Assembly (NCBI GenBank): GCA_017483465.1
Contig: JAFUWN010000039.1
Coordinates: 1 to 43,744, forward strand
From: Oscillospiraceae bacterium
GTDB taxonomy: Bacteria > Bacillota > Clostridia > Oscillospirales > Ruminococcaceae
Length of the DNA: 43,744 nt
Direction of reading: 5' to 3'
In this document: positions 37 through 43,744 of the stretch, one piece after another
Layout: every line of letters starts with the position of its first letter
Numbering within the stretch: the stretch's first letter is position 1
The notes under the pieces: model-generated
Told to the model about the DNA's origin: nothing
What the model saw: only the letters and a program-made list of their open reading frames with translations
The model's database searches: none
Position numbers and translations under genes: made by a program

Positions 37-227
37 TTTGTCAATAGACCAGCGACAGGGTTACAAAGAGGCGGCTTTTAAGCCTCTTTGTTCCTGTTGC
101 TATTGACAGGGACAATATTTTTCTATATTATATATAGCCACTTGCGGCAATTTTTGCGGCTCGTGATCTGATAGAAATATTATTTTTTTAAATAGCTGAT
201 TCTGAACTCTGAACTTTTGATTTATCA
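37..227 (-). repeat. Left copy of ~190-bp inverted intergenic repeat
   Basis: This segment aligns without gaps to the reverse complement of 43554-43744. Positions 37-141 are identical in the two copies. Most differences fall in a short block at about 142-163, and the rest to 227 is nearly identical. Positions 40-107 form a long hairpin: GTCAATA with TATTGAC, GCGACAGG with CCTGTTGC (one G-U pair), and a perfect 10-bp inner stem ACAAAGAGGC/GCCTCTTTGT. Relative to gene direction it lies just downstream of the dnaJ terminator. Inference: a dispersed intergenic element. The contig probably ends here because assembly broke at a repeat. Confidence 0.9.
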
Positions 228-244
228 CATCAAGCAAACAATTT

Positions 245-282
245 AAAAAAAGCCTTTTCTGCCGGACGTGGGCAGAAAAGGC
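245..282 (-). terminator. Rho-independent terminator of the hrcA-grpE-dnaK-dnaJ operon
   Basis: A perfect 12-bp stem (252-263 with 271-282, GCCTTTTCTGCC type) with a 7-nt loop is followed on the minus strand by seven T residues. It starts 20 bp after the dnaJ stop codon. Confidence 0.93.
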
Positions 283-302
283 ATCCTGCATGTAATATTT
301 TA

Positions 303-1478
303 TTATTTCATATCACTGAAAAAATCTTTTAATTTATCTTTGAAACTTTTTTTCTTGGGATAATTTCTATCTTCAAGCGAATTTTCAAAAGCTTTCAGAA
401 GCTCTTTCTGTTTGGAAGTCAGATTTTTCGGCACTTCGACTTTCAGATTGACATACTGATCGCCCCTGCCATCATGCTGGAGACGTTTGATCCCCTTGCC
501 TTTGAGCCGCTGTTTAGTTCCCGACTGTGTGCCTTCCGGAACCGAGAGCTTGACATTGCCGTCAATGGTCGGCACTTCGATTGTATCGCCAAGCACGGCC
601 TGAGCGAATGTAATCATGACATCACATTCAACATCAAAGCCATTTCTCTTAAAGATCGGATGCGGACGGACATTGATTTCTACATTCAGATTACCGGCAG
701 GACCGCCGTTGATACCGCAGTCGCCTTCATTGGAAACACGGAGTGTCTGACCGTTATCAATACCGGCCGGAATATTCAGAGACACATGTTTCTGCACCCG
801 TACCCGCCCCACGCCCTTGCAGCTTGAGCAGGGATTTTTAATAATTGTTCCCTTACCGCCGCAGGTCGGACAAGGATTGGTAGTAGACATAGTACCAAGA
901 AAAGTCTGCTGTGTCACTCTGACCGTACCGCTTCCATGGCAGTTCGGACAGGTTTCTGCTGCCGAGCCTGCTGCCGAGCCGGAACCGTTACAGGAAGTAC
1001 ATTTTTCCTGATGGGTGATTGTCATATCCTGTGAGGTTCCCTTACAGGCATCCATAAAGCTGATATTGATACTTGTATTCACATCTCTGCCGCGTCTGGG
1101 AGCATTGGCAGAAGAACTGCCGCCGCTGCGGAACGAGCCGCCTCCGCCGCCGAAGATACCGCCGAACACGCTCTCAAAGATATCGCTCATATCGCCGCCG
1201 TAACTTCCGGTAAAGCCGCCGAAGCCGTCCATACCGCCCATGCCGCCGCCTTCCAGACCGCCGTGACCGAACTGATCATATCTCTGGCGTTTTTCGGAGT
1301 CGGACAGCACAGCATAAGCCTCGTTGATTTCCTTCATTTTTTCTTCGCAGTCTGTTCTGTCCGGGTGCAGGTCGGGAGAATATTCTCTTGCCATTTTTCG
1401 GTAAGCTTTTTTTATTTCGTCCTCGCTTGCCCCTTTCTGGATTCCCAGAACTTCATAATAATCACGTTTTTCAGCCAT
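303..1478 (-). CDS. dnaJ: Chaperone DnaJ (Hsp40) with altered HPD motif
   Basis: Co-chaperone that delivers unfolded proteins to DnaK and triggers its ATP hydrolysis. 391 aa, usual length. It has an N-terminal J domain (residues 5-70), a Gly/Phe-rich linker (about 73-125), four CxxCxGxG zinc motifs (CTSCNGSG, CPNCHGSG, CPTCGGKG, CSSCKGVG) and the C-terminal substrate-binding domains. It is the last gene of the heat-shock operon, 105 bp after dnaK, and is followed by a strong terminator. Odd point: the J-domain tripeptide His-Pro-Asp expected at residues 34-36 reads Ser-Pro-Asp (codons TCT CCC GAC), and an HPD occurs four residues later at 38-40. The family call is certain; whether the shifted HPD works is unknown. 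Confidence 0.97.
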   Translation of the reverse strand: MAEKRDYYEVLGIQKGASEDEIKKAYRKMAREYSPDLHPDRTDCEEKMKEINEAYAVLSDSEKRQRYDQFGHGGLEGGGMGGMDGFGGFTGSYGGDMSDIFESVFGGIFGGGGGSFRSGGSSSANAPRRGRDVNTSINISFMDACKGTSQDMTITHQEKCTSCNGSGSAAGSAAETCPNCHGSGTVRVTQQTFLGTMSTTNPCPTCGGKGTIIKNPCSSCKGVGRVRVQKHVSLNIPAGIDNGQTLRVSNEGDCGINGGPAGNLNVEINVRPHPIFKRNGFDVECDVMITFAQAVLGDTIEVPTIDGNVKLSVPEGTQSGTKQRLKGKGIKRLQHDGRGDQYVNLKVEVPKNLTSKQKELLKAFENSLEDRNYPKKKSFKDKLKDFFSDMK

Positions 1479-1535
1479 ACTTATCCGCCGCCGGATGCGG
1501 CACTCCTTTCAAACAAAGAATTCAGAACCCATTCA

Positions 1536-1558
1536 AGGGCAGAGAAAATTTCTGCCCT
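1536..1558 (-). other. Stem-loop in the dnaK-dnaJ intergenic spacer
   Basis: AGGGCAGA (1536-1543) pairs perfectly with TCTGCCCT (1551-1558) across a 7-nt loop. On the minus strand no T-tract follows, so it is unlikely to be a full terminator. It may be an mRNA processing or stability element that sets dnaJ levels relative to dnaK. Confidence 0.55.
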
Positions 1559-1583
1559 CAATGGTTAAAAATCATTTTAAAAA

Positions 1584-3431
1584 TCAGTTTTCTGTGAAAT
1601 CAGCATCAATTACATCATCGTCATTATCGGATGTCTGCTGTTCATTGAAATTCTGTGCACCGCCCATATTCGGGTCAAAACCTGCTGCACCTGCACCGGG
1701 CTGCTGATAGATCTTAGAGCCGGCTTCCATGAGAACTTTCTGGAGTTCATCCATTTTGGTCTTCATGGCAGCAGTATCATTGGCATCAATTGCAGACTGC
1801 AATTCGGCAGATTTTGCACGGACAGCACTCTGATCATCAGCAGACATTTTGTCGCCGAGTTCTTTGAGAGTACCCTCAGTCTGAAGAATCATATTTTCGG
1901 CACTGTTCTTGGTATCTACCTCGTCACGGCGTTTTTTGTCTTCTTCAGCGTACTGTTCTGCCTCTTTTACGGCTCTTTCAATATCGTCTTTGGACATGTT
2001 GGTAGAAGCAGTAATAGAGATATTCTGTTCTTTTCCGGTACCCTGGTCTTTTGCAGTGACATGCACGATACCGTTGGAGTCAATATCGAATGTCACTTCG
2101 ATTCTCGGAACACCTCTCATAGCCGGAGCGATACCGTCCAGTCTGAAAGTACCGAGCTGCTTGTTATCTCTTGCAAACTGACGTTCACCCTGAAGGACGT
2201 TAATATCAACAGCAGGCTGGTTATCGGCATACGTGGAGAACACTTCTGACTTCTTAGTCGGAATCGTAGTATTTCTGGGGATCATAACAGTGCAGACACC
2301 GCCTGCGGTTTCGATACCGAGAGACAGCGGAGTAACATCAAGCAGAAGCAGACCTTCCTTGACTTCGCCGCCGAGCACACCGCCCTGTAAAGCGGCACCG
2401 AGAGCAACACACTCATCCGGATTGATACCCTTGAACGGTTCTTTGCCGATCAGTTTCTTAACAGCTTCCTGTACAGCCGGAATTCTGGAAGAACCGCCGA
2501 CCATGAGGACTTTATCCAGTTCGGAAGTACTCAGACCGCTGTCAGAGAGAGCCTGACGAACCGGCTCCATAGTAGCCTGTACCAGATCGGAAGTCAGTTC
2601 ATTGAATTTTGCCTGAGTCAGAGTCAGATTCAGATGTTTCGGGCCTGTTGCATCGGCAGTAATAAACGGCAGATTAATATTGGTTGTCGGTGTAGCAGAC
2701 AGTTCGATCTTAGCAGCTTCTGCGGCATCTTTGAGTCTCTGCATTACCATTTTATCCTGAGAGAGATCAATTGCCTGTTCTTTCTTGAATTCCGCAACCA
2801 TCCAGTCAATAATTCTCTGGTCGAAGTCATCACCGCCGAGATGGTTATTTCCGGCAGTCGCAAGCACCTGCTGAACGCCGTCACCCATTTCGATGATAGA
2901 CACATCGAACGTACCGCCGCCGAGGTCATAAACCATAACTTTCTGATCTTCTTCTTTATCGATACCATAAGAGAGAGCAGCAGCAGTCGGTTCGTTGATA
3001 ATTCTCTTGACAACCAGACCGGCAATCTGACCGGCATCTTTAGTAGCCTGACGCTGAGCATCGGTAAAATATGCCGGAACAGTGATAACTGCTTCATTGA
3101 CAGTTTCACCGAGATAAGCTTCTGCATCGGCCTTGAGCTTCTGGAGAATCATAGCAGAAATTTCCTGCGGAGTATATTTCTTGCCGTCAATGTCTACTTT
3201 GTAGTTGGAACCCATATGACGCTTGATCGAAGAAATAGTTTTATCAGGATTGGTAATGGCCTGATTCTTGGCAACCTTGCCGACCAGACGTTCGCCTGTT
3301 TTGGAGAATGCGACAACAGACGGTGTGGTTCTTGCACCCTCTGCATTGGTGATGACAACAGCGTTGCCGCCTTCTACTACTGCAACACAAGAGTTAGTTG
3401 TACCTAAGTCGATACCGATAATTTTTCCCAT
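1584..3431 (-). CDS. dnaK: Chaperone DnaK (Hsp70)
   Basis: ATP-dependent cytoplasmic Hsp70 that binds exposed hydrophobic peptides and cycles with DnaJ and GrpE. 615 aa, normal for Firmicutes. The N-terminal ATPase domain shows the phosphate-binding motif [10 protein letters not shown] at residues 5-14, DLGGGTFD in the middle and VGGSSRIP near 330. The substrate-binding beta domain and a helical lid follow, ending in an acidic tail ([12 protein letters not shown]). An AAGGGAAG ribosome site precedes the ATG. Third gene of the operon, 38 bp after grpE. Regulation by HrcA at the CIRCE upstream of hrcA is expected. Confidence 0.98.
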
Positions 3432-3469
3432 AATAAACGCTTCCCTTCAAAAATGCTGAAATAAAAAAT

Positions 3470-4009
3470 TTAATTTGCTACGGCAACCATAGCCGGACGG
3501 ATTAAACGCTCACCGAGCATATATCCTTTCTGGAATACTTCACAGATCGTATTTTCCGGAAACTCTTCGCTTGCTTCTTCCCGCTTGATTGCCTGATGAA
3601 TATTCGGGTTAAAAGTTTCACCGAGCGGAACGATTGCCGTCACGCCCTGTTTTTCCAGAAAACTCTGGAACTGTTCCAGAATCATATTCATGCCTTTGTG
3701 ATATTCTTCATCGCTGCACGGTGCATCAATTGCTCTCTCGAAATTATCAATCACAGGGAGCAGCAGTTCAATGCATTTGGCAGTCGCATCACCGAACAAG
3801 GCAAGTTTTTCTTTTTCTGTTCTGCGGCGGAAATTTTCATAGTCAGCCAGCAGACGGAGATATCTGTCTTTTTCTGCCTCAAGCTCGTCAGAGCCTTCGA
3901 TTTCATCGAGTTCATTGGCAGCGTTTTCCAGTTCCTCCTGCTGTTCGGGCTGTAACTCTTCCGTAGTTTCGTCCAGAACTTCTTTTTCCTGCTTATCGCT
4001 TTCAGTCAT
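3470..4009 (-). CDS. grpE: Nucleotide exchange factor GrpE
   Basis: Releases ADP from DnaK to reset the chaperone cycle. 179 aa. The first 45 residues are Glu/Gln-rich and probably disordered. A long helix follows (about 45-90, with the conserved DYENFRRRTEKE stretch), then a C-terminal beta domain ending in GERLIRPAMVAVAN, the GrpE signature. The start codon lies inside the end of hrcA (8-bp overlap), which implies translational coupling. A GGGGGAG ribosome site precedes it. Confidence 0.97.
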   Translation of the reverse strand: MTESDKQEKEVLDETTEELQPEQQEELENAANELDEIEGSDELEAEKDRYLRLLADYENFRRRTEKEKLALFGDATAKCIELLLPVIDNFERAIDAPCSDEEYHKGMNMILEQFQSFLEKQGVTAIVPLGETFNPNIHQAIKREEASEEFPENTICEVFQKGYMLGERLIRPAMVAVAN

Positions 4010-5063
4010 GGGACTCCCCCTCTTTCTTTATGTGTCCTGTTTCCGGAGGAGATTCAGGATTCTCCGAAATCAGGTCAGTAATTTTTTGTGAAAAATACTC
4101 AATATAAGGAATTACTTTAGCGTAATCCAGCCGCATGGGGCCTATCACGCCAAGAGAACCGACATTTTTTCCGCCCTTGCGGTATTTGGAAACAATCATG
4201 CTGGAATTGCCGATCACAAAGCTGTTGTTATCCTCACGGAACAGCACCCGGATACCGCTGAACGAATCATCCAGCAAACGGGTCAGTTCGTCTTTGTGTT
4301 CGATCATTCTGACAATTTCCATTCTGTCCAGATCCTGATATGTGAACAGATTTTTTTCGCCTCTGAATGTCAGGGCATGCTGACGGAGATCTCTGGAGAG
4401 TTCATAAATTCCCTGCACCAGCGGCGACATTGCCATCATATAGGCACTCATGGCCGCTGTCAGATTTTCCATCAGTTCGTCAGAAAGATCTGCTACAGAG
4501 ATACCTTCCAGATTCTCAGACAGATAACCGGAGAACCAGTTCAGCTGTTCATTTGTCAGATCAAATTCCAGACGGCAGGCTTTGTTTTTAATACTGCCTG
4601 CGGAGGTAATCAGCAGAATCACATACACACGTTTTCCTGTCGGAATGACTTCGACTCTGGAAATCACGGAAAACTGCGGAGAAAAATCCGAAACCACAGC
4701 AGCGCACTGTGTGAGTTCGGCAAGGGCAGTCGTAGCATTTTGTATCACAAGTTCTTCTGTTGCCGAACCGTGAACCGCAAGCATAGTGTCAAGCCTTTGT
4801 TTTTCTTCTGCCGAGAGGACGGGCGGATGCATCAATTGTTCGATATACAGTCTGTAGCCGCTGATGGTGGGAATTCTTCCGGCGGAAGTATGGGGCTGTT
4901 CGAGATAGCCGAGCTGTTCAAGAGCGGCCATATCATTCCGGACGGTTGCGGCAGAAACATTAATTTCCGGCAGAGCGGCAAGTATCTTTGAGCCGACAGG
5001 CTCGCCGGTTCTGACATATTCCTCCACCACGGCAGCCAGTATTTTCAGCTTCCGTACATTCAT
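4002..5063 (-). CDS. hrcA: Heat-inducible transcription repressor HrcA
   Basis: Binds CIRCE to repress the chaperone operon; its folding depends on GroEL in species studied. 353 aa, typical. An N-terminal winged helix (about residues 1-75, including SAATVRNDMAALEQLGYL) precedes a GAF-like dimerisation domain, and a short charged C-terminal tail runs into grpE. First gene of the operon, with CIRCE and a strong promoter 48-107 bp upstream. The nearest Shine-Dalgarno-like AAGGTG is about 14 nt before the ATG, a long spacing that would fit weak translation, but the N-terminus matches the family at this start. Confidence 0.97.
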   Translation of the reverse strand: MNVRKLKILAAVVEEYVRTGEPVGSKILAALPEINVSAATVRNDMAALEQLGYLEQPHTSAGRIPTISGYRLYIEQLMHPPVLSAEEKQRLDTMLAVHGSATEELVIQNATTALAELTQCAAVVSDFSPQFSVISRVEVIPTGKRVYVILLITSAGSIKNKACRLEFDLTNEQLNWFSGYLSENLEGISVADLSDELMENLTAAMSAYMMAMSPLVQGIYELSRDLRQHALTFRGEKNLFTYQDLDRMEIVRMIEHKDELTRLLDDSFSGIRVLFREDNNSFVIGNSSMIVSKYRKGGKNVGSLGVIGPMRLDYAKVIPYIEYFSQKITDLISENPESPPETGHIKKEGESHD

Positions 5064-5110
5064 GTTCTTGACTCACGCACCTTAATAGCAGAATTGCTGT
5101 ATTCTGAAAC

Positions 5111-5137
5111 TTAGCACTCTCACTCTTTGAGTGCTAA
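5111..5137 (-). promoter_or_regulatory. CIRCE operator (HrcA binding site)
   Basis: Perfect TTAGCACTC-N9-GAGTGCTAA inverted repeat, the canonical HrcA site. It sits immediately downstream of the -10 box at 5142-5147, so bound HrcA would block initiation of hrcA-grpE-dnaK-dnaJ. Confidence 0.98.
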
Positions 5138-5141
5138 GTTT

Positions 5142-5170
5142 AGTGTACCACGATTTACATAAAAAGTCAA
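5142..5170 (-). promoter_or_regulatory. Sigma-A promoter of the heat-shock operon
   Basis: On the minus strand, -35 TTGACT (5165-5170), 17-bp spacer, -10 TACACT (5142-5147), directly upstream of CIRCE. Confidence 0.9.
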
Positions 5171-5232
5171 GCATCTTTCTGATTTTCAGCATTTTTGATA
5201 AATTTCTGATTTTTAATTTTTATATTTTATAC

Positions 5233-5267
5233 AAAAAATGTGCCCTGTACAAAGCGGACAGGGCACA
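5233..5267 (-). terminator. Terminator of the msmX-type gene
   Basis: A perfect 10-bp stem (TGTGCCCTGT 5239-5248 with ACAGGGCACA 5258-5267) is followed by six T residues on the minus strand, 15 bp after the stop codon. Confidence 0.92.
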
Positions 5268-5281
5268 TAGTAAAACCACAA

Positions 5282-6424
5282 TCAGTTGACAATTGTCTTT
5301 TCTGTCTCTTTATCGAACAGATGAATTCTGTTCGGATCGAGGCCGACTTTGATCGTATCGCCGGGACGTGCGGTAGAGCTGGGCTGTACTCTTGCAGTAA
5401 TGGAATTGCCTGCACACTTGAGATACAGATACGTTTCAGCACCCATCATTTCTGTAATTTCCACATCAGCATCAACAATACCTGTCTGGGCAGTTGCAAG
5501 ATAAGCGGGTTCGTCATGAACGCTTTCCGGACGGATACCGAGGCAGACTTCACGGTCAACATACTTGGCCAGATCGGGAACGAGCTTGGATTCCGGCATT
5601 AAGATTGTAAACTTGGTGCCTCTGGAATCCTTGGTATCATCAGAACCGAATTCTACATAATATCTGTTATATTCGTCTTTTCTGAGATATGCATCAATAA
5701 AGTTCATCTGCGGAGAGCCTAAGAATCCGGCAACGAACTTATTGCAGGGCTTCTCGTACAGCATCTGCGGTGTATCAACCTGCTGGATAAAGCCGTCTTT
5801 CATAACTACGATACGGTCACCCATAGTCATAGCTTCTGTCTGGTCATGTGTTACATAGATAAAAGTAGTACCGAGCTTTTTGTGCAGTTTGGAAATTTCT
5901 GTTCTCATCTGGGCACGGAGCTTTGCGTCAAGGTTAGACAGCGGCTCGTCAAGCAGGAACACTTTCGGGGAACGAACGATAGCACGGCCGAGGGCAACAC
6001 GCTGACGCTGACCGCCGGACATAGCCTTCGGCTTTCTGTCGAGCAGGTGGGAAAGGTCAAGAATCTTTGCAGCTTCTTCTACTTTTCTTGCAATTTCGTC
6101 TTTCGGAACTTTACGCAGTTTCAGGCCGAATGCCATATTGTCAAATACAGTCATATGCGGGTACAGAGCGTAGTTCTGGAACACCATTGCAATATCTCTG
6201 TCTTTCGGTGCAATATCGTTTACAAGTCTGTCGCCGATATACAGTTCTCCTTCGGAGATTTCCTCCAGACCTGCAATCATACGCAGTGTGGTAGACTTTC
6301 CGCATCCGGAAGGGCCTACCAGAATGATGAATTCTTTGTCTCTGATTTCGAGGTTTACGTCAGTTACGGCTACGAAACCGCCGGGATACTTCTTGTAGAT
6401 ACCTCTGAGTGATAAACCAGCCAT
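5282..6424 (-). CDS. msmX: Sugar ABC transporter ATPase, MsmX/UgpC type
   Basis: ATPase subunit of carbohydrate-uptake ABC importers (CUT1). 380 aa. Walker [10 protein letters not shown] at 37-45, Q-loop, ABC signature MSGGQRQR near 135, Walker [14 protein letters not shown], then H-loop THD. The C-terminal third is the MalK/TOBE regulatory region, with GIRPESV near 305. No permease or binding-protein genes lie nearby. Known relatives such as B. subtilis MsmX energise several importers encoded elsewhere, so the same is inferred here. It has its own promoter (6526-6554), a GGAGG ribosome site and its own terminator, so it is monocistronic. Confidence 0.93.
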
Positions 6425-6525
6425 TTATTCCAGTCCTCCATTTACAAAAATTTTTTCAGACCATGCTGTTATATGTAGTATTGAAAAAATACAGAATGAT
6501 ACCCTAGCAAAGTCTGTCTATTATT

Positions 6526-6554
6526 ATCATACCAAATTCTGAAAGATTTTTCAA
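6526..6554 (-). promoter_or_regulatory. Promoter of the msmX-type gene
   Basis: -35 TTGAAA (6549-6554), 17-bp spacer, -10 TATGAT (6526-6531). This implies a ~95-nt 5' leader before the start at 6424. Confidence 0.75.
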
Positions 6555-6572
6555 GTCGCTGATTGACTAAAC

Positions 6573-7352
6573 TTATGGTCTGTCATTTATCAAATATGAC
6601 GAAAATGCCAATATAATTTGTTTGCACAGAACCGAAAACGAATCAGCTTTCAACAATTTTTCGATATCTTTGGTGAAAATCTCCATACAACCTCCGGGGG
6701 GCAGTTCCGGAGGCAGGAGCAGACTTCCGACAGCCGCTCTGTGCAGATGGTTCACATGATTTCCAAGAGCAGCAAACATACGTTTGACTTCATGATATTT
6801 CCCTTCATGCAGACAGATGATACAGTGTGTGTCATCCAGTTTCTGCACCTGAGCAGAAAGGCATTCTGTCCCGTCAGCGAGCACCAGACCGTCAGAGAGT
6901 TTCTGAATATAATCTTCTTCAAATTTTTCAGCGAGCGTGACAAGATAATATTTCGGAACATGATGTCTGGGAGACAGCATCTGATGTGCCAGCTGTCCGT
7001 CATTCGTGAGCAGAACGAGGCCTGTTGTATCAATATCCAGCCGGCCGGCCGGGAAAAGGTCTTTATGCCGGAGTTCTTCCGGCAGAAGCTCCAGTACGGT
7101 CTTATGTTTTTTATCTTCCGTTGCACAGATACAGCCCTGCGGCTTGTTGACGATAATATATAACAGTGAACCGCCGTGAATTTTCTTTCCGTACAGTCTG
7201 ATTTCCTGTGTATCGGGATTGATTTTCTGCTTTGCCTCGGTGATAATTCTGCCGTCTGCGGAGACGGCACCGTTTTTGAGCAGGTTTCTGACATCGCTTC
7301 TGGAATAAGAAGTTCTGTCAGCTAAAAATTTATCCAATCTGATTTCCGCCAT
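6573..7352 (-). CDS. Ribosomal small-subunit pseudouridine synthase, RsuA/RluB family
   Basis: Converts a specific uridine of rRNA to pseudouridine. 259 aa from the chosen start MAEIRLDKF; a start three codons earlier also exists, but a GGATGTGAG ribosome site favours this one. N-terminal S4 RNA-binding domain (about 1-60), then the catalytic domain with PAGRLDIDTTGLVLLTNDG, where the first Asp of GRLDIDT is the family's catalytic residue. KYLV/KYHEVKRM motifs follow. RsuA (16S) and RluB/E/F (23S) are hard to tell apart by eye. It lies 16 bp after the HD-GYP gene and is probably co-transcribed with it. Confidence 0.9.
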   Translation of the reverse strand: MAEIRLDKFLADRTSYSRSDVRNLLKNGAVSADGRIITEAKQKINPDTQEIRLYGKKIHGGSLLYIIVNKPQGCICATEDKKHKTVLELLPEELRHKDLFPAGRLDIDTTGLVLLTNDGQLAHQMLSPRHHVPKYYLVTLAEKFEEDYIQKLSDGLVLADGTECLSAQVQKLDDTHCIICLHEGKYHEVKRMFAALGNHVNHLHRAAVGSLLLPPELPPGGCMEIFTKDIEKLLKADSFSVLCKQIILAFSSYLINDRP

Positions 7353-7368
7353 AGCACTCACATCCTGT

Positions 7369-8676
7369 TTATTTTTCTTTCATAGTATATTCCGTATCGT
7401 TATCCATCAGGGCGAGCATGATTTCTGCAAACTCAGGATCAAACTGTGTGCCTCTGCCTTTTACGATCTCATTCCTGACAACCTGCTGCGGCAGAGGGTC
7501 TCTGTAGCTTCTTTTTGAAGTCATGGCATCATAGGCATCTGCAACAGCGATAATACGGGCGATTTCCGGAATTTCTTCACCTTTGAGGCCTTCGGGGTAG
7601 CCTCTGCCGTCATAGCGTTCATGATGATAATGAGCACCAATGCTCAGATCAGGATTTTTCTTGATTTTCTGAAGAATCTGATTTCCGATGACAGGATGTG
7701 TTTTAATAATTCCGTATTCTTCATCCGTCAGTTTGCTGTCTTTATTGATAATATTTTCCGGAATGCCGATTTTTCCGACATCATGGAGCAGTCCGGCAAG
7801 ATAGATATTCTGTCGTTCTTTCTCGTCTTTTCCGGCACGTTCCGCAATCATTTCCGAATACCGGGCGACTCTGGAAGAATGGCCGTGTGTATATTTATCT
7901 TTAGCTTCAATTGCTTCTGCAAGAGCATAGGAAGTTTCCTCCATCATAGAACGCATGGTTTCCTGTTCTTCTTTGAGGAGTTCTTTTTCACGCTGATTTG
8001 CAAGCGTAATCTTCCGGTTAGTATTTCTGACTTCAAAAACACGCAGCATAATGACTAAACCGACAATTGTCAGATTGATCAGCGGTGTTCCCTGCATGAA
8101 AAGCTGTACACCGGCAGCGGCTGTCGGCAGAGTCGGCACTAACATCAATGCAACGGACAATTCTTTATCACATTTTTTACGATACTGAAAAATGACTGAA
8201 AACTGCAGCAGCCAGATCATCACAGGAATCAGATAACAAATTACATAAGGCTTTGATCTGTGATAATGATTGGCTTCATCAAACGTATAGTAAAGCCCTG
8301 TAAACTGCGAAACAATGACCAGTGTTTCCCCGATGAAAGAAAGAATTTCACCTGCTCTGAGCCGTTTCGGAACAGAAATCAGTTCTACTTCATGCAGATA
8401 GAAATTTATCAGATAGTGATTAAACACATGCACAATGAAAATTGACATGAAAAATACGATAAATTTACAGATTCTCAATATCCAGAAAGCCCGTTCGCCT
8501 TCCGTGTCCCTGAACAGATACACCTGATAATCTGACAGCAGCAACAATATAGAACTGATTTCCATGAAAAAAAGAATCCGTTTTTTGGTTTTCTCTATTT
8601 TCGAGAAACTCCCATAAAAAGTAATTGATGCACAAAAGCCGATTAATATCAGTTCATACTCCCGTAAAATTTCCAC
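7369..8676 (-). CDS. Seven-helix membrane HD-GYP phosphodiesterase
   Basis: Probable membrane receptor that hydrolyses cyclic di-GMP. 435 aa. About seven hydrophobic segments fill residues 7-213, then a coiled linker (about 215-250) and an HD-GYP domain: LLHDVGKIGIP near 296-305 supplies the metal-binding His-Asp, HYHHERYDG at 349-357 follows, and GRGYP at 357-361 is the GYP motif. Intact metal ligands suggest an active enzyme. GAGGTATCA precedes the ATG. No GGDEF cyclase is present in the window. The ligand of the membrane part cannot be inferred. Confidence 0.9.
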   Translation of the reverse strand: MEILREYELILIGFCASITFYGSFSKIEKTKKRILFFMEISSILLLLSDYQVYLFRDTEGERAFWILRICKFIVFFMSIFIVHVFNHYLINFYLHEVELISVPKRLRAGEILSFIGETLVIVSQFTGLYYTFDEANHYHRSKPYVICYLIPVMIWLLQFSVIFQYRKKCDKELSVALMLVPTLPTAAAGVQLFMQGTPLINLTIVGLVIMLRVFEVRNTNRKITLANQREKELLKEEQETMRSMMEETSYALAEAIEAKDKYTHGHSSRVARYSEMIAERAGKDEKERQNIYLAGLLHDVGKIGIPENIINKDSKLTDEEYGIIKTHPVIGNQILQKIKKNPDLSIGAHYHHERYDGRGYPEGLKGEEIPEIARIIAVADAYDAMTSKRSYRDPLPQQVVRNEIVKGRGTQFDPEFAEIMLALMDNDTEYTMKEK

Positions 8677-8723
8677 ATTGATACCTCGTTTATTTCATTT
8701 TGTATAAAGCATTCTAAAAGCAA

Positions 8724-8768
8724 CCTGTCCTGCATAGATTAGACTAAATCTGAAATACACCGGACAGG
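8724..8768 (+). promoter_or_regulatory. Possible ribosome-site-sequestering hairpin
   Basis: CCTGTCC (8724-8730) can pair with GGACAGG (8762-8768), whose 3' end overlaps the AGGAGGG ribosome site (8766-8772) of the gene at 8780. The loop holds a smaller imperfect stem around 8737-8752. Confidence 0.4.
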
Positions 8769-8779
8769 AGGGTCTTATC

Positions 8780-9199
8780 ATGAAAAATTTTTTAAAATAT
8801 CTGCTGATTCTGCCGCCTGCATTGTTATGCTGCATTGCCGTGATTCTGAGTCATCAGAAAAAACAGCCGGCAGCAGATCAGATACAGGCAGCCACAGAAT
8901 CCGACCGTAGTGCATGGCTGATGCTTCAGGGCTGGAACGGTGAACTTTTATATTCCCGTCCTGTCACTGTTCCGGAAGAATTTCCGGAAAGCTATGCAGA
9001 ATATGTCAATCTTCAGCTCCGGCTCCGGCTGCCTCTGGAGCAGTATGCCGGCAGGCACGGCGTTGTTTATACATATCAGCTGGAAAATTCTGATTTATAT
9101 GCCGAATTATTAACCGCTGACGGTATGCTGATCGGAGCACAGTGCTATTATCCGGAAGAACACATAACCCGCAATATGAAAGGGCATAAAATTACCTGA
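8780..9199 (+). CDS. DUF4830-like secreted or membrane-anchored protein
   Basis: Unknown function. 139 aa: one N-terminal hydrophobic helix (residues 3-25), then a small extracytoplasmic domain. The pattern WL-LQGW, VTVPEEFPESYAEYV, LEQYAGRHGVVYTYQLEN and MLIGAQCYYPE resembles the DUF4830 family of short Firmicute proteins, recalled from pattern only. A strong AGGAGGG site precedes the ATG. It is divergent from the HD-GYP gene and its last 8 bp overlap the end of the converging gene at 9192. Confidence 0.8.
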   Translation: MKNFLKYLLILPPALLCCIAVILSHQKKQPAADQIQAATESDRSAWLMLQGWNGELLYSRPVTVPEEFPESYAEYVNLQLRLRLPLEQYAGRHGVVYTYQLENSDLYAELLTADGMLIGAQCYYPEEHITRNMKGHKIT

Positions 9200-9596: not shown

Positions 9597-9665
9597 AAGA
9601 CATTCTCCTTTCAGAACTAAAAAATAAACACAGAATTCCGATTATGACCAGAACGGAAAGCATCA

Positions 9666-10127: not shown

Positions 10128-10148
10128 ATAGATTCACCTCTGCAATTT

Positions 10149-10177
10149 ATTATAACAGAATATAAAAATCCTGTCAA
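10149..10177 (-). promoter_or_regulatory. Consensus promoter of nrdR
   Basis: -35 TTGACA (10172-10177), 17-bp spacer, -10 TATAAT (10149-10154): full consensus. The -35 overlaps the stop codon of the upstream isomerase-like gene. Confidence 0.93.
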
Positions 10178-21184: not shown

Positions 21185-21290
21185 TAGGTGTGCAGGCTTG
21201 CTGCGGCACATGAGACAATCCGCTTAATGCTGCTCAGTTCCCTGCCTGACATGGTTCACGGCGAATCATTGCACAGGGCCCGCACACCTA
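21185..21290 (-). ncRNA. ffs: SRP RNA (4.5S, small bacterial type)
   Basis: About 106 nt on the minus strand. The ends pair perfectly (UAGGUGUGCGGGC with GCCUGCACACCUA). The apical domain reads GAACCAUGUCAGG, then a GGAA tetraloop region, then GAGCAGCAUUAAGCGG, the conserved Ffh-binding internal loops of bacterial SRP RNA. Immediately upstream of dnaX, the usual Firmicute location. The RNA partners Ffh (encoded elsewhere) in membrane protein targeting. Confidence 0.93.
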
Positions 21291-32694: not shown

Positions 32695-32697
32695 ATC

Positions 32698-34585: not shown

Positions 34586-34592
34586 AAAATAA

Positions 34593-34628
34593 AATCCGGA
34601 AGCAAGTTTTATGAACTGCTTCCGGATT
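34593..34628 (+). terminator. Terminator of the polysaccharide operon
   Basis: A perfect 12-bp stem AATCCGGAAGCA (34593-34604) with TGCTTCCGGATT (34617-34628), followed by a T-rich stretch. It lies between convergent genes and may serve the aspartate kinase too. Confidence 0.85.
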
Positions 34629-34645
34629 CGCTTTATTATAATTTA

Positions 34646-35974: not shown

Positions 35975-36017
35975 GATAAAAAATCCTTTCTCACATGTAT
36001 ATTATTTCATATATTTA

Positions 36018-36046
36018 ATTATATGCGATCTGACTAAAAAAATCAA
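36018..36046 (-). promoter_or_regulatory. Promoter of aspartate kinase
   Basis: -35 TTGATT (36041-36046), 17-bp spacer, -10 TATAAT (36018-36023). Confidence 0.8.
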
Positions 36047-36091
36047 TTGGAAATCAACACAAATTTTACAGATGAAAAAGTGATTTTTTGT

Positions 36092-36109
36092 CGAATACGA
36101 CTGTATTCG
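36092..36109. other. 7-bp inverted repeat after the Xre gene
   Basis: CGAATAC (36092-36098) and GTATTCG (36103-36109) with a 4-bp centre, between the end of the Xre gene and the aspartate kinase promoter. No T-tract follows on the minus strand; could be a weak terminator or an operator. Confidence 0.4.
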
Positions 36110-36124
36110 CTACAAGGACAATTT

Positions 36125-36349
36125 TTATTTCAATTCTTTATAATAAGTCATAGTATTTGTCAAACCGAGAATATAATCTACATTTGTTTTATGATATTCC
36201 GCAAGAGCAATCAAAATTCCAATAGGAACTTCATGACGGCCTGTTTCATAGTCGCTATAAGCTTGCTGAGTGCAATTTAATAAATATGCCATCTGCCATT
36301 GTTTCATATCAGCATCTTTTCGTAATTCTTTGATTCTGGGGTACGCCAT
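36125..36349 (-). CDS. Small Xre-family (Cro/CI) DNA-binding protein
   Basis: 74 aa, a single helix-turn-helix domain. RIKELRKDADMKQWQMAYLL and TQQAYSDYETGRHEVPIGILIALAEYHKTNVDYILGLT give the HTH_3 pattern with the usual QxxxSxYE-like turn. Start MAYPRIKEL at 36349 chosen from an AGGCAGGT site; an upstream start at 36391 lacks one. A likely stand-alone repressor; target unknown. Neighbours do not suggest a toxin partner. Confidence 0.85.
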   Translation of the reverse strand: MAYPRIKELRKDADMKQWQMAYLLNCTQQAYSDYETGRHEVPIGILIALAEYHKTNVDYILGLTNTMTYYKELK

Positions 36350-36546
36350 AATTAAACCTGCCTTTCTTGTATTAATTATAATATACTCCAATTTGTTACA
36401 ATAAAATACATATTTTCAGCGTAAAAAATGCGATAATTATAAATAAAAATACAATTAAAACTTACTGCATTTTATAGTAAAATAATAATATAGAGACGAA
36501 AATCTACCGGACACCCGCCCAAATTGAAAAAAGAAGCGGAATGCGT

Positions 36547-38747
<2,201 letters not shown>

Positions 38748-38757
38748 ATGCTGTTTC

Positions 38758-38792
38758 AGCCCCCCTTGTGCAAACAGGGGGGCTTTTTATTA
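38758..38792 (+). terminator. Terminator of guaB
   Basis: AGCCCCCC pairs with GGGGGGCT across an 11-nt loop, followed by TTTTATT, 10 bp after the stop codon. Confidence 0.93.
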
Positions 38793-38818
38793 CTTGATCA
38801 AAACAGGGTGATATGCTC

Positions 38819-40300
38819 ATGAACAGACCTGTCAATTTTTATCAGATCACACGCTGTACAGAGCCGAAAGCGTTTACTGCCATGCTTCGTTATCAGAGCG
38901 GAAATTTTACTGTCAAAGCCAAGACAAAAGAAATTCTTTCTATGAAAATTCTGGCAGATATGCTCTATTCTCACGGCGTTGCCGTATCAGAAACTGACGG
39001 CTTTTTTCTCTCTGTCAATTTCCGGTTCGGAAAGGAATTTGATCTGCTCAAAATCAATGCTTCTGCCTGTCTGAATATTGAATTAAAAAGTTCGCTGAAA
39101 GACTTCCCTCCGGATAAGGCAAGAGAAAAAATCCGGAATCAGCTCCGGAAAAACAGGCATTATCTTTCTGTACTTGACAGAAAATTATATCTCTATACTG
39201 TTGTCACTGATACGATGAAATGTTATCATATGTCTGAAAATCTGGAATTTCAGGAAATTGATTTTTCTGAAATCGTCAGAGCCGTGAAGCATTTTTTCGG
39301 AGATTATATTTCTGATATAGAAACGCTGTTCCGACCCTCGGAATATCTGGTCTCGCCTCTGAATCATTCTCAGAAATTTCTGGAACATGCCTATTTCCTG
39401 ACCCAGAATCAGGAAGACAAGAAAAAAGAAATTCTCGAAAAACTGCATTCTGAATCTGTGATTTTAGGCTTAACCGGTGAGGCAGGCACGGGAAAAAGTC
39501 TTATGCTTTATGATATTGCCAGAGAACTTGCTCAGACTTCTCCTGTTTTAATCATTCACTGTGCTTCTGAACTGCCTGTCGGACTCTCAGCGATCAGCCG
39601 GAATATTAAAAATCTTACGATTCTCCGGCCGAAAGATCTCCAGATTCAGAATCTTTCTGATTTCCTGAATGCCTATCAATATATTCTCACAGATGAAACA
39701 CAGCGTGTTTATTCCGGTCTGATGACTCAGATTCATGATCATGTCAGGAAAAGTCAGAAATCTGCATTTCTCTCATTCGATTCCAGACAGACCCTCAGCA
39801 TTCAGGAGGAACATCAAAATATTGCAGAATGGGCTTTCCGGCACTGTGATAAAATCTATATGCTGAAAAATACCATCCGGACAAATGCCGAGATTATGCA
39901 TTTTATCCGGAAACTGCATAATCTGCATTATCACATTCCTACACAGATTCAGGCCGATCTGCCGGAGCATGTCCGTATCTGCTATGCCGGAAACGGTCTC
40001 GAAACGGATAATTTCTTAGATTACTATCAGCTTCCCAGAAACGGCGGCTATAAATTAATCCGGCTTGATTCCTGCAATGCCGTGATTGGTCAGGAATTTG
40101 ATCATGTCATGACCGTGCTGGATCATACTTTTTATTATGACGAAACTCAAAAACTCTGTGCTCATGATATGCAGAATCAATTATCTATGCATATGCTCTA
40201 TCAGGTTCTGACCCGTGCCCGTGACAGGCTTGTCCTGATTATCACGGATGAAACTTTATTTACGCAGATCATATCTGCCTCAGGAGATGAAATTTTATGA
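38819..40300 (+). CDS. PD-(D/E)xK-like nuclease fused to SF1/DUF2075-type ATPase
   Basis: 493 aa. N-terminal part (about 30-130) has EFDLL (Asp ~75) and NIELKSS (Glu ~88, Lys ~90), the spacing of a PD-(D/E)xK or NERD-type nuclease. The middle and end are a P-loop ATPase: Walker A LTGEAGTGKS near 218-227, Walker B YILTDETQ near 288-295, VIGQEFDHVM near 420, and LYQVLTRARDRLVLII near 465-480, which matches SF1 helicase motif VI. This is the layout of DUF2075-type proteins. ATG 38819 chosen (AGGGTG 8 nt upstream). Role unknown; DNA repair or phage defence are candidates. Ends 4 bp inside the next gene. Confidence 0.82.
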   Translation: MNRPVNFYQITRCTEPKAFTAMLRYQSGNFTVKAKTKEILSMKILADMLYSHGVAVSETDGFFLSVNFRFGKEFDLLKINASACLNIELKSSLKDFPPDKAREKIRNQLRKNRHYLSVLDRKLYLYTVVTDTMKCYHMSENLEFQEIDFSEIVRAVKHFFGDYISDIETLFRPSEYLVSPLNHSQKFLEHAYFLTQNQEDKKKEILEKLHSESVILGLTGEAGTGKSLMLYDIARELAQTSPVLIIHCASELPVGLSAISRNIKNLTILRPKDLQIQNLSDFLNAYQYILTDETQRVYSGLMTQIHDHVRKSQKSAFLSFDSRQTLSIQEEHQNIAEWAFRHCDKIYMLKNTIRTNAEIMHFIRKLHNLHYHIPTQIQADLPEHVRICYAGNGLETDNFLDYYQLPRNGGYKLIRLDSCNAVIGQEFDHVMTVLDHTFYYDETQKLCAHDMQNQLSMHMLYQVLTRARDRLVLIITDETLFTQIISASGDEIL

Positions 40301-40707
40301 TTCAATGGCTCAATAAACAGCCCGAAGCCTGGGAAGGCATTTTCAAAAGCGAATTTTTCCGGAATGAGGATAATCAGAATGAATTATTTCTCTGTGCCGA
40401 ATGCCCTGTTGATGATAATTATATTAATCATTCTGTCAATAATTTCAATGCTATATCAGAAAACAGGATTCAGGAAATCTGTCAGGAAATTATCAGACTC
40501 GCTCAGGAGGGCGGAGAAAATGAAGAATTTATACTGCCGGAACTTGAAAACCCGGAAGAAATTCTGGAATACTGCTGGTTTACCACTTTATATATCAATC
40601 AGGATAAGACTGTCATTCTCGAAGGCGAGGGAGACTGGGGCGAAGTGATCGGCATTGTATTTAAAAATAATAAAATAATCTATATCGGAACAGAGTATTT
40701 TAATTAA
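40297..40707 (+). CDS. Hypothetical 136-aa partner of the nuclease-ATPase
   Basis: Not recognised. An acidic soluble protein: WLNKQPEAWEGIFKSEFF at the start, CAECPVDDNYINHSV in the middle and a C-terminal beta-rich part (WFTTLYINQDKTVILEGEGDWGEVIG). No signal peptide or membrane segment. The start overlaps the upstream stop (ATGA), so translation is coupled and the stoichiometry probably fixed. It resembles small immunity- or DUF-type proteins in general shape only. Confidence 0.8.
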   Translation: MIQWLNKQPEAWEGIFKSEFFRNEDNQNELFLCAECPVDDNYINHSVNNFNAISENRIQEICQEIIRLAQEGGENEEFILPELENPEEILEYCWFTTLYINQDKTVILEGEGDWGEVIGIVFKNNKIIYIGTEYFN

Positions 40708-40710
40708 TCG

Positions 40711-40739
40711 TTGACAAAAATCTAAAAATATGTTATCAT
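40711..40739 (+). promoter_or_regulatory. Distal promoter of cellobiose phosphorylase
   Basis: -35 TTGACA (40711-40716), 17-bp spacer, -10 TATCAT (40734-40739). It would give a ~280-nt leader. Confidence 0.85.
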
Positions 40740-40745
40740 ATAAAA

Positions 40746-41028
40746 ATTCGCATCTTGATAAAAGTAAAAATTGTTGGTTGTGCTGACAAAACATTCAGCA
40801 TGTAAAATTTTTAGTGTGCCATTAAGTTTGTGAAAATGACAAAATTCGTTACATTTGAAAGACAGAATAGGGTGTAACGTGGATTGAAATGTCGTGACGG
40901 AAGATATTGTCACTTATGTCGGAAAAAATTATCTCCCGAATCCGTAAAATTTTCCGAAAACCCCTTGCCAAAATCAGAATATTATGATAAAATAAAAATA
41001 TAAAAATATTTCCCTAAGGAGGAAAACT
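40746..41028 (+). other. Long structured 5' leader of cellobiose phosphorylase
   Basis: The 321-bp gap 40708-41028 has no convincing gene. Four candidate hairpins lie in series: TGCTGA/TCAGCA (40781-40800), CGTTACA/TGTAACG (40847-40879), GTGAC/GTCAC (40894-40913) and CGGAAAAAATT/AAATTTTCCG (40920-40956). No known riboswitch was recognised. A 13-codon frame at 40836 has no ribosome site. Possible carbon-responsive leader. Confidence 0.45.
40965..40993 (+). promoter_or_regulatory. Proximal promoter of cellobiose phosphorylase
   Basis: -35 TTGCCA (40965-40970), 17-bp spacer, -10 TAAAAT (40988-40993). It would start transcription ~30 nt before the AAGGAGG site. Confidence 0.65.
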
Positions 41029-43425
41029 ATGCAGTACGGACATTTTGATCTGAAAAACAAAGAATATGTGATTACTCGTCCCGATACCCCTGCACCGTGG
41101 GTAAACTATCTGGGTTCTCCCGAATATGGTGCAATTATCTCTAACAATGCCGCCGGCTACAGCTTCGTGCAGTCCGGTGCCAACGGCAGAATTGCAAGAT
41201 TCAGATTTAATTCCATGATGGCTCTGCCCGGAAGATATATCTATCTGCGTGATATGGATTCCCATGATTATTGGTCTGCAACCTGGCAGCCGGTCGGAAA
41301 ATCTCTTGATGATTATAAAACTGTATGCCGTCACGGTACAGCATATTCTGTCATGACAAGCGATTATTCTGCCATCAATACCGAAACGACTTACTATGTT
41401 CCCATGAATCAGACCTATGAAGTATGGAGAACAAAAATTACCAACAACGATACAAAAGCAAGAAAGCTTTCTGTCTTTGGTTTTATCGAATTCACAAACG
41501 ATAATAACTACGAACAGGATCAGGTGAATCTGCAATATACGCTCTTCATCACCAGAACCGAACGCAAGGGCAATAAGATTCTCCAGCATATCAATGAAAA
41601 TTCGGGCAAATGGGCTGACGGCTCCAATCACAGAGAAAGATTTTTCGGCATGGTCGGTGCGGATGTCCTTGACGGCTGCGGAAGCCTTGAAAAATTCATT
41701 GGCCCTTACCGGACATATTCCAATCCGATTATGGTCGAAGACGGCAAGTGCGATGAGTCGATGAATTTCAATTCCAATGCCTGCGGTGCACTCAGAACGG
41801 AAATTACACTCCAGCCCGGCGAAACAAAAGAGTTAATCTATTTCTTAGGCCAGAAAAATGATGCAGAATCTGCCGGGATTCTCAAAGCTTACGAACAGGC
41901 CGGAAAAGTCGATGCCGAACTTGAAGAATTAAAATCCTACTGGCACGGCAAGCTTGCTAATTTTGAAGTAGAAACGCCTTCCGAAGAATTCAATAATATG
42001 ATGAATGTCTGGAATGCATACCAGTGCTTTATTACGTTCATCTGGTCGAGAGCGGCTTCTTTCATCTACTGCGGATTAAGAAACGGCTACGGCTACAGAG
42101 ATACTGTTCAGGATATTCAAGGTATTATTCATCTTGACCCGGAAATGGCTGCCGAAAAAATCAGATTCATGCTTTCTGCTCAGGTGGATAACGGCGGCGG
42201 TCTGCCTCTGGTAAAATTCAATCATAATGCAGGTCATGAAAATACTCCGGATGATCCCGAATATGTCAAAGAAACCGGACATCCTTCCTATCGTGCGGAT
42301 GACGCTCTGTGGCTCTTCCCGACTATCGTAAAATATATCGGTGAAAGCGGCAATGCGGCTTTTCTGGACGAAGTGATTGTCTATGCCAACGGCGGCGAAG
42401 ATACTGTTTATGAACATCTCAAGAGAGCCATCAAATTCTCTATGGAACACATGGGCGATCATGATATGCCTGCCGGACTTCATGCCGACTGGAATGACTG
42501 TCTGCGTCTTGGTGCTAAGGGCGAATCTACTTTCGTTGCATTCCAGCTCTACTATGCAATGAGTGTCATCAGAGATATGGCAGAATCCAAAAACGATACC
42601 GAGTATATCAAATATATTGATGATGTACAGAAAAAGCTCGGTGATTCTCTCGAAAAATGCTGGGATGAAGACAGATTCATCAGAGGTATCAGAGAAGACG
42701 GCGTGATTGTCGGTGCCAAGAAAGACCCGGAAGCGAACATGTGGCTTAATCCGCAGAGCTGGTCTGTGATCTCCAAATTTGCAAGCGACGAACAGGCTGA
42801 TAAAGCAATGAACAGTGTTCATGATATTCTGAATACCCCCTATGGTGCAAAGCTTCTTGAACCGCCTTATAAAGAACATTATTTTGACGGTGCTTTAATG
42901 CATATCTTCAATGCCGATACCAAAGAAAACGGCGGTATCTTCTCTCAGTCTCAGGGCTGGCTGATTCTTGCAGAAGGTCTGCTCGGTCATGGTGACAGGG
43001 CATTTGAATATTTCCTGGAAAGCTCTCCGGCTACTCTGAATGATAAAGCAGAAATCAGAGTGCTCGAACCCTATGTTCACGGTCAGTTCACAGAAGCAAA
43101 GCATTCACCGTTTGCAGGACGTTCGCACGTTCACTGGCTGACGGGTACGGCTTCTACGGTAATGGTCGGCTGTACGGAGGGTATCTGCGGTATTCGTCCG
43201 GATGCTGACGGCATTACGATTTCTCCCTCGATTCCGTCCGCATGGGATGGCTTCAAGATGAAGAAGAATTTCAGGGGCAAGCAGCTCAATATTGATGTAC
43301 AGAATCCGAGTCATGTCCAGAGCGGTGTAAAATCCGTATCTGTCAACGGCAAGGTTCAGGAAAGTGCTTATATCAAGGCTTCTGATCTGAATGAGACAAA
43401 CGAAATTGTAATCACTTTAGGTTAA
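41029..43425 (+). CDS. Cellobiose phosphorylase (GH94)
   Basis: Phosphorolyses cellobiose to glucose 1-phosphate and glucose in the cytoplasm, saving ATP. 798 aa, close to known cellobiose phosphorylases and shorter than cellodextrin phosphorylases. N-terminal beta sandwich (about 1-290), linker helices, (alpha/alpha)6 barrel with GYGYRDTVQDIQG near 345-357 and the catalytic acid in HADWNDCLRLG near 485-495, then C-terminal SGVKSVSVNGK. No signal peptide. AAGGAGG lies 8 nt before the ATG. Laminaribiose or chitobiose specificity is less likely but not excluded. No transporter is adjacent; the MsmX-type ATPase in this window could energise uptake. Confidence 0.93.
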   Translation: MQYGHFDLKNKEYVITRPDTPAPWVNYLGSPEYGAIISNNAAGYSFVQSGANGRIARFRFNSMMALPGRYIYLRDMDSHDYWSATWQPVGKSLDDYKTVCRHGTAYSVMTSDYSAINTETTYYVPMNQTYEVWRTKITNNDTKARKLSVFGFIEFTNDNNYEQDQVNLQYTLFITRTERKGNKILQHINENSGKWADGSNHRERFFGMVGADVLDGCGSLEKFIGPYRTYSNPIMVEDGKCDESMNFNSNACGALRTEITLQPGETKELIYFLGQKNDAESAGILKAYEQAGKVDAELEELKSYWHGKLANFEVETPSEEFNNMMNVWNAYQCFITFIWSRAASFIYCGLRNGYGYRDTVQDIQGIIHLDPEMAAEKIRFMLSAQVDNGGGLPLVKFNHNAGHENTPDDPEYVKETGHPSYRADDALWLFPTIVKYIGESGNAAFLDEVIVYANGGEDTVYEHLKRAIKFSMEHMGDHDMPAGLHADWNDCLRLGAKGESTFVAFQLYYAMSVIRDMAESKNDTEYIKYIDDVQKKLGDSLEKCWDEDRFIRGIREDGVIVGAKKDPEANMWLNPQSWSVISKFASDEQADKAMNSVHDILNTPYGAKLLEPPYKEHYFDGALMHIFNADTKENGGIFSQSQGWLILAEGLLGHGDRAFEYFLESSPATLNDKAEIRVLEPYVHGQFTEAKHSPFAGRSHVHWLTGTASTVMVGCTEGICGIRPDADGITISPSIPSAWDGFKMKKNFRGKQLNIDVQNPSHVQSGVKSVSVNGKVQESAYIKASDLNETNEIVITLG

Positions 43426-43430
43426 AAAAT

Positions 43431-43506
43431 CCGTCCTCATGAAGGGCGGCACTGATATAGAAGTATTTGTCATAGTATTTCTGATATTCCTGTCAGAAAT
43501 ACTATG
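43431..43506 (+). terminator. Hairpins after cellobiose phosphorylase
   Basis: A 7-bp stem CCGTCCT/AGGGCGG (43431-43449) directly follows the stop. Then comes a perfect 14-bp stem CATAGTATTTCTGA (43471-43484) with TCAGAAATACTATG (43493-43506). Neither has a strong T-tract. They probably end or stabilise the phosphorylase mRNA. Confidence 0.55.
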
Positions 43507-43515
43507 ATGTTTCTA

Positions 43516-43554
43516 TTGACAAGGATAGTAACATTATGATATAATTGTTACTAT
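43516..43554 (+). promoter_or_regulatory. Promoter with overlapping palindromic operator
   Basis: -35 TTGACA (43516-43521), 18-bp spacer, -10 TATAAT (43540-43545). A perfect 9-bp inverted repeat, ATAGTAACA (43525-43533) and TGTTACTAT (43546-43554), has the -10 box inside it. A repressor bound there would shut the promoter. It reads into the right repeat copy. Confidence 0.7.
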
Positions 43555-43744
43555 GATAAATCGAAAGTTCAGAGTTCAGAATCAGCTATTTAAAAAAATA
43601 ATGCTTCTATCAGATCAGGAGTGACAAAAACAGGGACAGGTGGCTATATATAATATAGAAAAATATTGTCCCTGTCAATAGCAACAGGAACAAAGAGGCT
43701 TAAAAGCCGCCTCTTTGTAACCCTGTCGCTGGTCTATTGACAAA
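43554..43744 (+). repeat. Right copy of ~190-bp inverted intergenic repeat
   Basis: Reverse complement of 37-227 without gaps; the last 105 bp (43640-43744) are identical to the left copy. It holds the same long hairpin (43674-43741). Unlike the left copy it also has CAGGGACA (43631-43638), which can pair with TGTCCCTG (43667-43674). A 23-codon frame starting at ATG 43553 ends at TGA within the divergent block; the left copy stays open there. The unit begins right after the palindromic operator. Confidence 0.9.

Follow-up and report, generated by a model that had tools for sequence, protein, structure and literature searches.

An inverted element at both ends of a contig

The window (the whole stretch of DNA analyzed, 43,744 nucleotides) comprises all of contig C6 of a 2.91 Mb genome in 118 contigs, and both of its ends lie in one element of about 190 bp, present in inverted orientation. 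Positions 37-227 align without gaps to the reverse complement of 43554-43744, with a leading identical run of 105, as the sequence-only reading had described; in total 178 of 191 bases are identical, and the repeat includes a hairpin (computed RNA folding energy -38.1 kcal/mol). NCBIfam confirms dnaJ as the gene beside the first copy. For the 798-aa ORF next to the second, which had been called cellobiose phosphorylase, the translation does read like one, but NCBIfam returns only a weak glycosyl-hydrolase match far below the cut-off. Elsewhere on the minus strand lie two tRNA genes and a small SRP RNA, at 36850-37022 and 21187-21285, and these are the only Rfam matches in the window at the gathering threshold, with none to the element. 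The features are listed here, phage sense being the minus strand at 37-227:

1..36, plus strand: left end of the element, truncated where the contig begins; in C95 and C115 it extends to GATAAATCAGAATTC
37..110, minus strand: long imperfect hairpin of the predicted phage-origin unit
107..115, minus strand: inverted iteron, allele CAGGGACA (TTGTCCCTG in phage sense)
116..137, minus strand: AT-rich core, a candidate unwinding element, with CTATATATAATATA at 124-137 in phage sense
143..150, minus strand: iteron R2, TTGCCGCA in phage sense; its allele differs from that of the inverted iteron
155..162, minus strand: iteron R1, GAGCCGCA in phage sense, separated from R2 by 4 bp, with the 12-bp period found in phages
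161..226, plus strand: right end of the element, terminating in GATTTATC (219-226), which may form a terminal inverted repeat with GATAAATC
303..1478, minus strand: dnaJ (NCBIfam); the element behind it is absent in relatives
41029..43425, plus strand: ORF beside the second copy, cellobiose-phosphorylase-like by translation (weak family match)
43555..43620, minus strand: second copy, right end with GATTTATC (43555-43562)
43619..43626, plus strand: second copy, iteron R1, degenerate (GAGTGACA)
43631..43638, plus strand: second copy, iteron R2, CAGGGACA
43644..43665, plus strand: second copy, AT-rich core
43666..43674, plus strand: second copy, inverted iteron, TTGTCCCTG
43671..43744, plus strand: second copy, hairpin up to the contig end

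Read in phage sense, the unit opens with a repeat R, followed after four bases by a second R (12-bp period); a short spacer leads to an AT-rich core (TATATAATATATAG or a variant of it, as in alignment A1 of 26 sequences), and an inverted R and the long hairpin come last. The sequence of R varies among copies, with alleles that include TTGCGACA, CAGGGACA and TTGCCGCA, and the two direct iterons of a unit are maintained as a matched pair: in the 25 units compared, which come from 15 chromosomal loci, an average of 7.0 of 8 positions are identical between R1 and R2, compared with a mean of 3.83 and a maximum of 5.32 for shuffled partners under the same choice of offset (2000 shuffles). This count leaves out C1 and the right-hand copy of C6, since both are repeats of C26, and retains the weak units C9a and C108b. 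By the same measure, degraded units are C9a (1/8), C108b (4/8) and the C26 type (6/8), and the units on C37 and C108a have no hairpin of their own, each adjoining a full unit. In several units the inverted R is of a differing allele; the first window copy is such a mosaic, because its R2 allele differs from its inverted iteron. Mosaic origins, in which the iteron pair belongs to one allele and the inverted iteron to another (window 143-162; L010 1538-1661), suggest exchange at the AT core. The GATAAATC/GATTTATC ends, possible terminal inverted repeats, occur in a subset of copies.

The repeat contains not only both ends of C6 but also ends of C9, C26, C1, C95 and C115, and an identical 126/127-mer is common to the starts of C6, C95 and C115 and the end of C9. 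This shared stretch looks like an assembly k-mer overlap, so that the contig ends are to be regarded as stopping points of the assembler. In the same genome blastn returned 22 matches to the repeat, and a covariance model built from the 26 units of A1, whose E-values are rough, returned 21, of which 17 are full length (including a prophage-linked origin on C25) and four are pieces at contig ends. These counts refute a restriction to two copies, and the earlier description of a dispersed multi-copy repeat stands; all genomes compared, here and below, are drafts.

Kinship with a phage replication origin

Two copies of the element identify its source: on their reverse strand a gene ends exactly at the unit, and this gene encodes a phage primase-helicase (PriCT_2, AAA_25, phrog_2597). 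A phrog_2597 primase is present in 10 of 38 genomes of the same genus, and at nine of these ten loci the unit follows the primase, a few to about thirty bases behind the stop codon, the tenth locus (L065) being open-ended. In G018, the primase and unit are followed by RusA, a sigma-r4/ArpU-like regulator and the terminase small subunit, and in G013 a RusA-like ORF (by translation) follows the primase-adjacent unit. Matches to the covariance model occur in 13 of the 38 genomes, eight of which hold a prophage origin only, with one match each (G043, G040, G041, G013, G036, G018, G046, and G037). A pattern for the hairpin and core matched, in the named collection, three Ruminococcus MAGs and one unrelated Saprospiraceae. 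Some chromosomal copies retain about 27 nt from the 3' end of the primase gene, and at least these are therefore phage-derived. The chromosomal element is thus the same unit that adjoins the phage primase, and the comparisons strongly support reading it as the replication origin of temperate phrog_2597 phages, copied into the chromosome.

The prophage origin of the genome itself, on C25, is joined to a truncated ORF that by translation resembles a radical-SAM protein. This junction may be a misjoin, because C99, which matches C25:1979-10910 at 99.99% identity, has its start within the unit. Beside the prophage primase remnant, CRISPR-like tandem repeats are followed by type III-A cas10/csm1 and csm3 (L041 on C25, ~3179-7550; L042 on C99).

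The primase ends in a helix-turn-helix (HTH) whose sequence covaries with the iterons behind the gene. We compared 90 primase loci, comprising ten from the genomes and the best 80 of 112 from IMG/VR (L067-L146), and dropped two that were open-ended, leaving 88. A regular expression for the helix matched 61 loci, five of them at the wrong place, and in 41 the first tabulated position is Arg. Among these Arg-first loci, with near-duplicates kept, RN, RS or RT helices accompany GGGAAA in 16 of 21 cases, RR helices GGGACA in 9 of 11 and RD helices GGGGAA in 7 of 8, and the one RA helix has none of the tabulated iterons. For 78 loci with different C-termini, a partial Mantel test on the 160 bases behind the primase related this iteron region to the C-terminal HTH given the protein body (r=0.53; none of 2000 permutations reached this value, maximum 0.165), and related it to the protein body given the HTH at only -0.02, with some phylogenetic dependence left in tests of this kind. 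In the viral contigs scanned, neither GAGTTGCA nor TTGCCGCA was found with the element core, and a CAAGAC pattern gave only two matches, attributable to chance. On this evidence, the unit is best read as a predicted origin whose iterons would be recognized directly by the primase HTH, and the correspondence may be usable for predicting origin specificity.

An RNA element, which the earlier proposal of a repeated small RNA would imply, was considered and rejected. It has no Rfam match, and both arms of the apparently covarying stem track the HTH allele of the phage protein, while the third copy is a direct repeat; protein binding consequently explains the pairing of the arms better than an RNA stem does. 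A site-specific recombination site or integron attC was likewise set aside, by eye only, with no supporting consensus seen.

Chromosomal settings and a second phage site

In the genome of the window, copies lie beside or between uvrC, metA, the RNase Z gene, rseP, a ROK gene, dnaJ, and spoIIIAA/spoIIIAB, and the nearest ORFs, which are what the neighbor survey covered, are not phage genes, C25 apart. Placement relative to genes varies: copies are found 3' of dnaJ and metA, 5' of uvrC, and between spoIIIAA and spoIIIAB, and such positions upstream of genes or within operons do not fit the 3'-end regulatory unit that had been suggested. Among relatives, G010 has copies between galK and glgB, and G032 and G033 have them at two loci, one within the spoIIIA operon (AE/AG) and the other next to a DUF4340 gene. 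The names SpoIIIA, galactokinase and MetA are best matches, because their scores fall below curated cut-offs. The spoIIIA operon has been struck at two places, spoIIIAA/AB in the genome of the window (L047 5560-5790) and spoIIIAE/AG in G032 and G033 (L191 2948-3480; L192 3150-3350). The array of G039:C24 is flanked by sigma-70-like and HIRAN genes, which are not housekeeping genes, and for this reason may lie in a mobile element.

Comparison with sister species indicates insertion. The element core was absent at the dnaJ position, with at most one substitution allowed, in all 13 fetched loci (from 34 other matching genomes), at the C82 position in 11 of 11 (part of 31 matching genomes), and at the C108a position in 11 of 11 (part of 29), the fetched loci measuring 2.4-4 kb; in six of nine relatives' dnaJ loci compared, the same next gene is kept without the element. 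The insertion at C108a is close to clean relative to G044, and at C82 a duplicated stretch flanks it. In a test for target-site duplication at eight loci, with element limits set by the analyst, only C82 exceeded the shuffled 95% value. The search for a longer element with the same ends, in the genome's own incomplete assembly, returned none, and both ends occur only at elements. MITEs are short, gene-less, dispersed elements with inverted ends. The MITE-like nature proposed for the repeat consequently stands in part, as it is short, gene-less and dispersed, with several near-identical copies and a subset with matching GATAAATC ends, but it differs in that seven of eight loci have no flanking duplication, no parental element was found in that assembly, and its core corresponds to the predicted phage origin.

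Two or three units are present at nine of the 15 loci, and the R alleles are unlike in all nine, which speaks against tandem duplication. Stacking of unlike alleles was also considered as evidence of selection and rejected, because random allotment of the same allele labels gives all-unlike stacks in 24% of 20,000 trials. The spoIIIA and DUF4340 loci are common to G032 and G033 by descent, with flanks 81-88% identical, which reduces the 15 loci to 13 independent ones. At the spoIIIA locus, the two genomes have one origin unit in common, whereas the adjacent stretch (~387 vs. 85 bp), its palindromes and the second unit are wholly different (L191 2939-3325 vs. L192 3109-3193), so the place is kept while the sites turn over.

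The palindromes are a second kind of phage site. They measure 14-28 bp, most of them at least 18 bp, and adjoin origin arrays in G010, G039, G032:C84, and G033:C206. As G032 and G033 have one place in common, these four relatives represent three independent ones. Matches to the pattern TGTNNANTCGANTNNACA number 25 and are spread over 13 of the 38 same-genus genomes, compared with one for the backward control, and seven of these sites lie in DUF3102-like genes, 14 lie outside such genes (in arrays and as single sites), and four are imperfect and unplaced. Family-wide, the pattern matches 7 of 197 genomes, and two of the seven matches are perfect palindromes. The DUF3102-like genes themselves (phrog_15609) number 25, in 19 of the 38 genomes, with Pfam scores below the cut-off and, for L228, no DUF3102 match; six of them share a contig with a phrog_2597 primase. 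Behind the HTH codons of 24 of these 25 genes lies a palindrome in which 8 or more of 9 pairs match (codon-shuffled controls, 85 of 5000), the exception being G040:C147. At L225, L224, L219, L038 (8784-10031) and others, the 18-bp palindrome lies within the coding sequence, as a self-encoded parS-like site.

As with the primase, arm and HTH vary together: RRQAY occurs with TGTGCAC (four genes), KHSQA with TTTCCAC (three), KRH[QM]A with TGTTGA (three), GRRHAY with TGTGACAT (two), KKVQAY with TGTTCA (two), and RRHG/REHG with TGTGACCCC (two). The partial Mantel correlation between palindrome and DUF3102 HTH is 0.49 (0/2000 permutations, n=24), a test weakened by the linkage of site and HTH codons. 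The operators of parS/ParB and KorB are palindromes to which a ParB/KorB-like HTH protein binds, and they lie within or close to the gene for that protein. The DUF3102 palindrome resembles them in being a palindrome in the gene of a ParB/KorB-like HTH protein that probably binds it, and differs in its position within coding sequence, immediately after the codons for the HTH, and in having arms that are not the same from gene to gene.

Outside the gene the palindromes are almost bare, in that matches to DUF3102 proteins at E<0.01 cover 14-17 residues at the site, longer ones being weak; some palindromes carry up to 17 DUF3102 codons. At G003:C48 (L218 3737-4225), four different palindromes occur within ~490 bp with no origin, next to a Toprim/DnaB helicase, a PD-(D/E)XK transposase-family gene and an integrase-like ORF, and given these neighbors the array probably belongs to a mobile element. 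Other origin-free palindromes stand beside housekeeping-type genes (G032:C82, G032:C100, and G010:C11). The genome of the window has no site by the strict pattern, its own DUF3102-like gene on C39 carrying a near-palindrome, and the argument from two proteins therefore rests on the relatives; a search for related loci with one DUF3102 protein gave no match.

Possible roles of the dispersed origins

We propose that the scattered origins act as decoys against infection by several phages, a reading that we regard as evenly poised. The C-terminal HTH of the primase would most likely bind R-N4-R and the inverted R behind its gene, the AT-rich core would open, and phage replication would be loaded there. 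The host holds copies of such origins with several specificities, scattered and stacked, mostly beside housekeeping genes, joined in relatives by a palindrome matching a second phage DNA-binding protein (DUF3102, ParB/KorB-like). The initiator of an infecting phage, and in relatives its DUF3102 protein too, could then be captured by chromosomal sites, and phage replication would be starved or misdirected. The sequences themselves show the match to the phage unit, its position at the primase, the covariation of HTH with iteron and with palindrome, the preserved iteron pairs and the insertions relative to sister species. We infer binding, origin activity, titration and host benefit, and a decoy role explains best why two unrelated kinds of phage site have been removed from their genes, gathered and kept, mostly by housekeeping genes.

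There is a precedent: phage origins supplied in trans give a phenotype of phage-encoded resistance, PER (PMC8965321; PMC6356513), examples being a 302-bp element of phiSfi21 and the origins of TP901-1 and Tuc2009 (PMC6356513; PMC8965321), whose replisome organizers bind direct repeats at their own gene, which form the origin (PMC8965321). PER as described there resembles the present case in a short noncoding phage origin, a cognate initiator adjacent to it, and extra copies that hinder replication (PMC6356513; PMC8965321), and the genome of the window has such extra copies (the 21 model matches, 17 full length and one prophage-linked). The PER origins of those papers are cloned or prophage-borne, whereas those described here are chromosomal, dispersed, of many alleles and often stacked, with resistance only proposed, and in relatives the arrays are combined with sites of a second phage protein. 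The TP901-1 and Tuc2009 systems also share repeats in or beside the initiator gene; here, the initiator differs in being a PriCT_2/AAA_25 primase (phrog_2597) with a C-terminal HTH, and the predicted origin in combining a third, inverted iteron with an AT core and a hairpin. A literature search, with most subscription journals outside its reach, found neither dispersed chromosomal phage-origin decoys nor the DUF3102 site.

The main rival, which we consider rather unlikely, is that the element is selfish, a hitchhiker or a component of a satellite. It would be a mobile repeat that has no genes or that formerly belonged to something larger; infecting phages would amplify or partition it through its origins (and DUF3102 sites), amplified copies would re-insert elsewhere, and several unlike origins would let more kinds of phage serve as helpers. 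Near-identical copies that share GATAAATC ends at different places, empty sites in relatives, and palindromes in the mobile-looking surroundings of G003:C48 (helicase-primase, integrase-like ORF) and G039:C24 are all consistent with it, but it accounts less readily for the failure to find a longer element with the same ends in the incomplete assembly, the seven of eight loci without flanking duplication, the housekeeping genes nearest to the named loci of the genome, and the origin-free palindromes by housekeeping-type genes, for which a replication hitchhiker has no need. Phage-inducible chromosomal islands and satellites are chromosomal DNA that interacts with phage replication. The element may do likewise, but at its own loci only cis-acting sites are seen among the nearest ORFs, with G003:C48 and G039:C24 as possible exceptions. 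The decoy and selfish readings could both be true together.

Less probable still is that the copies are neutral debris of former prophages and of recombination between them. The primase 3' ends and DUF3102 codons that some copies retain, the degraded or mosaic units, and the stacking of unlike alleles at no more than chance all point this way; debris explains the matched iterons and bare palindromes less well, however, and it must also accommodate nearest ORFs that are not phage genes at the genome's own loci (C25 apart), the meeting of two unrelated phage sites at three independent places, and the persistence of two origin loci in two species. A host regulatory element (terminator, promoter or small RNA for neighbor genes) is very improbable, as the strong hairpin and a promoter-like stretch seen by eye on the strand opposite the phage sense (TTGAC / TATATT) stand against the lack of an Rfam match, mixed placement relative to genes, absence at the same places in fetched relatives, and arms that follow the phage HTH allele.

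Taking the decoy reading further, we tentatively suggest that Ruminococcus chromosomes collect, stack and recombine sites of many specificities for essential phage proteins (initiator iterons and DUF3102 palindromes) as a gene-less innate immunity, a cis-only sponge array that is directed at several phages and would diversify as the specificity of their HTHs drifts. If true, this would constitute a protein-free bacterial defense made of decoy sites alone, lying beyond the reach of gene-based defense searches, and it would account for a set of intergenic repeats that otherwise seem to lack meaning. Function aside, the comparisons offer two readable recognition codes, one between primase HTH and iteron and one between the DUF3102 HTH and the palindrome inside its own gene.
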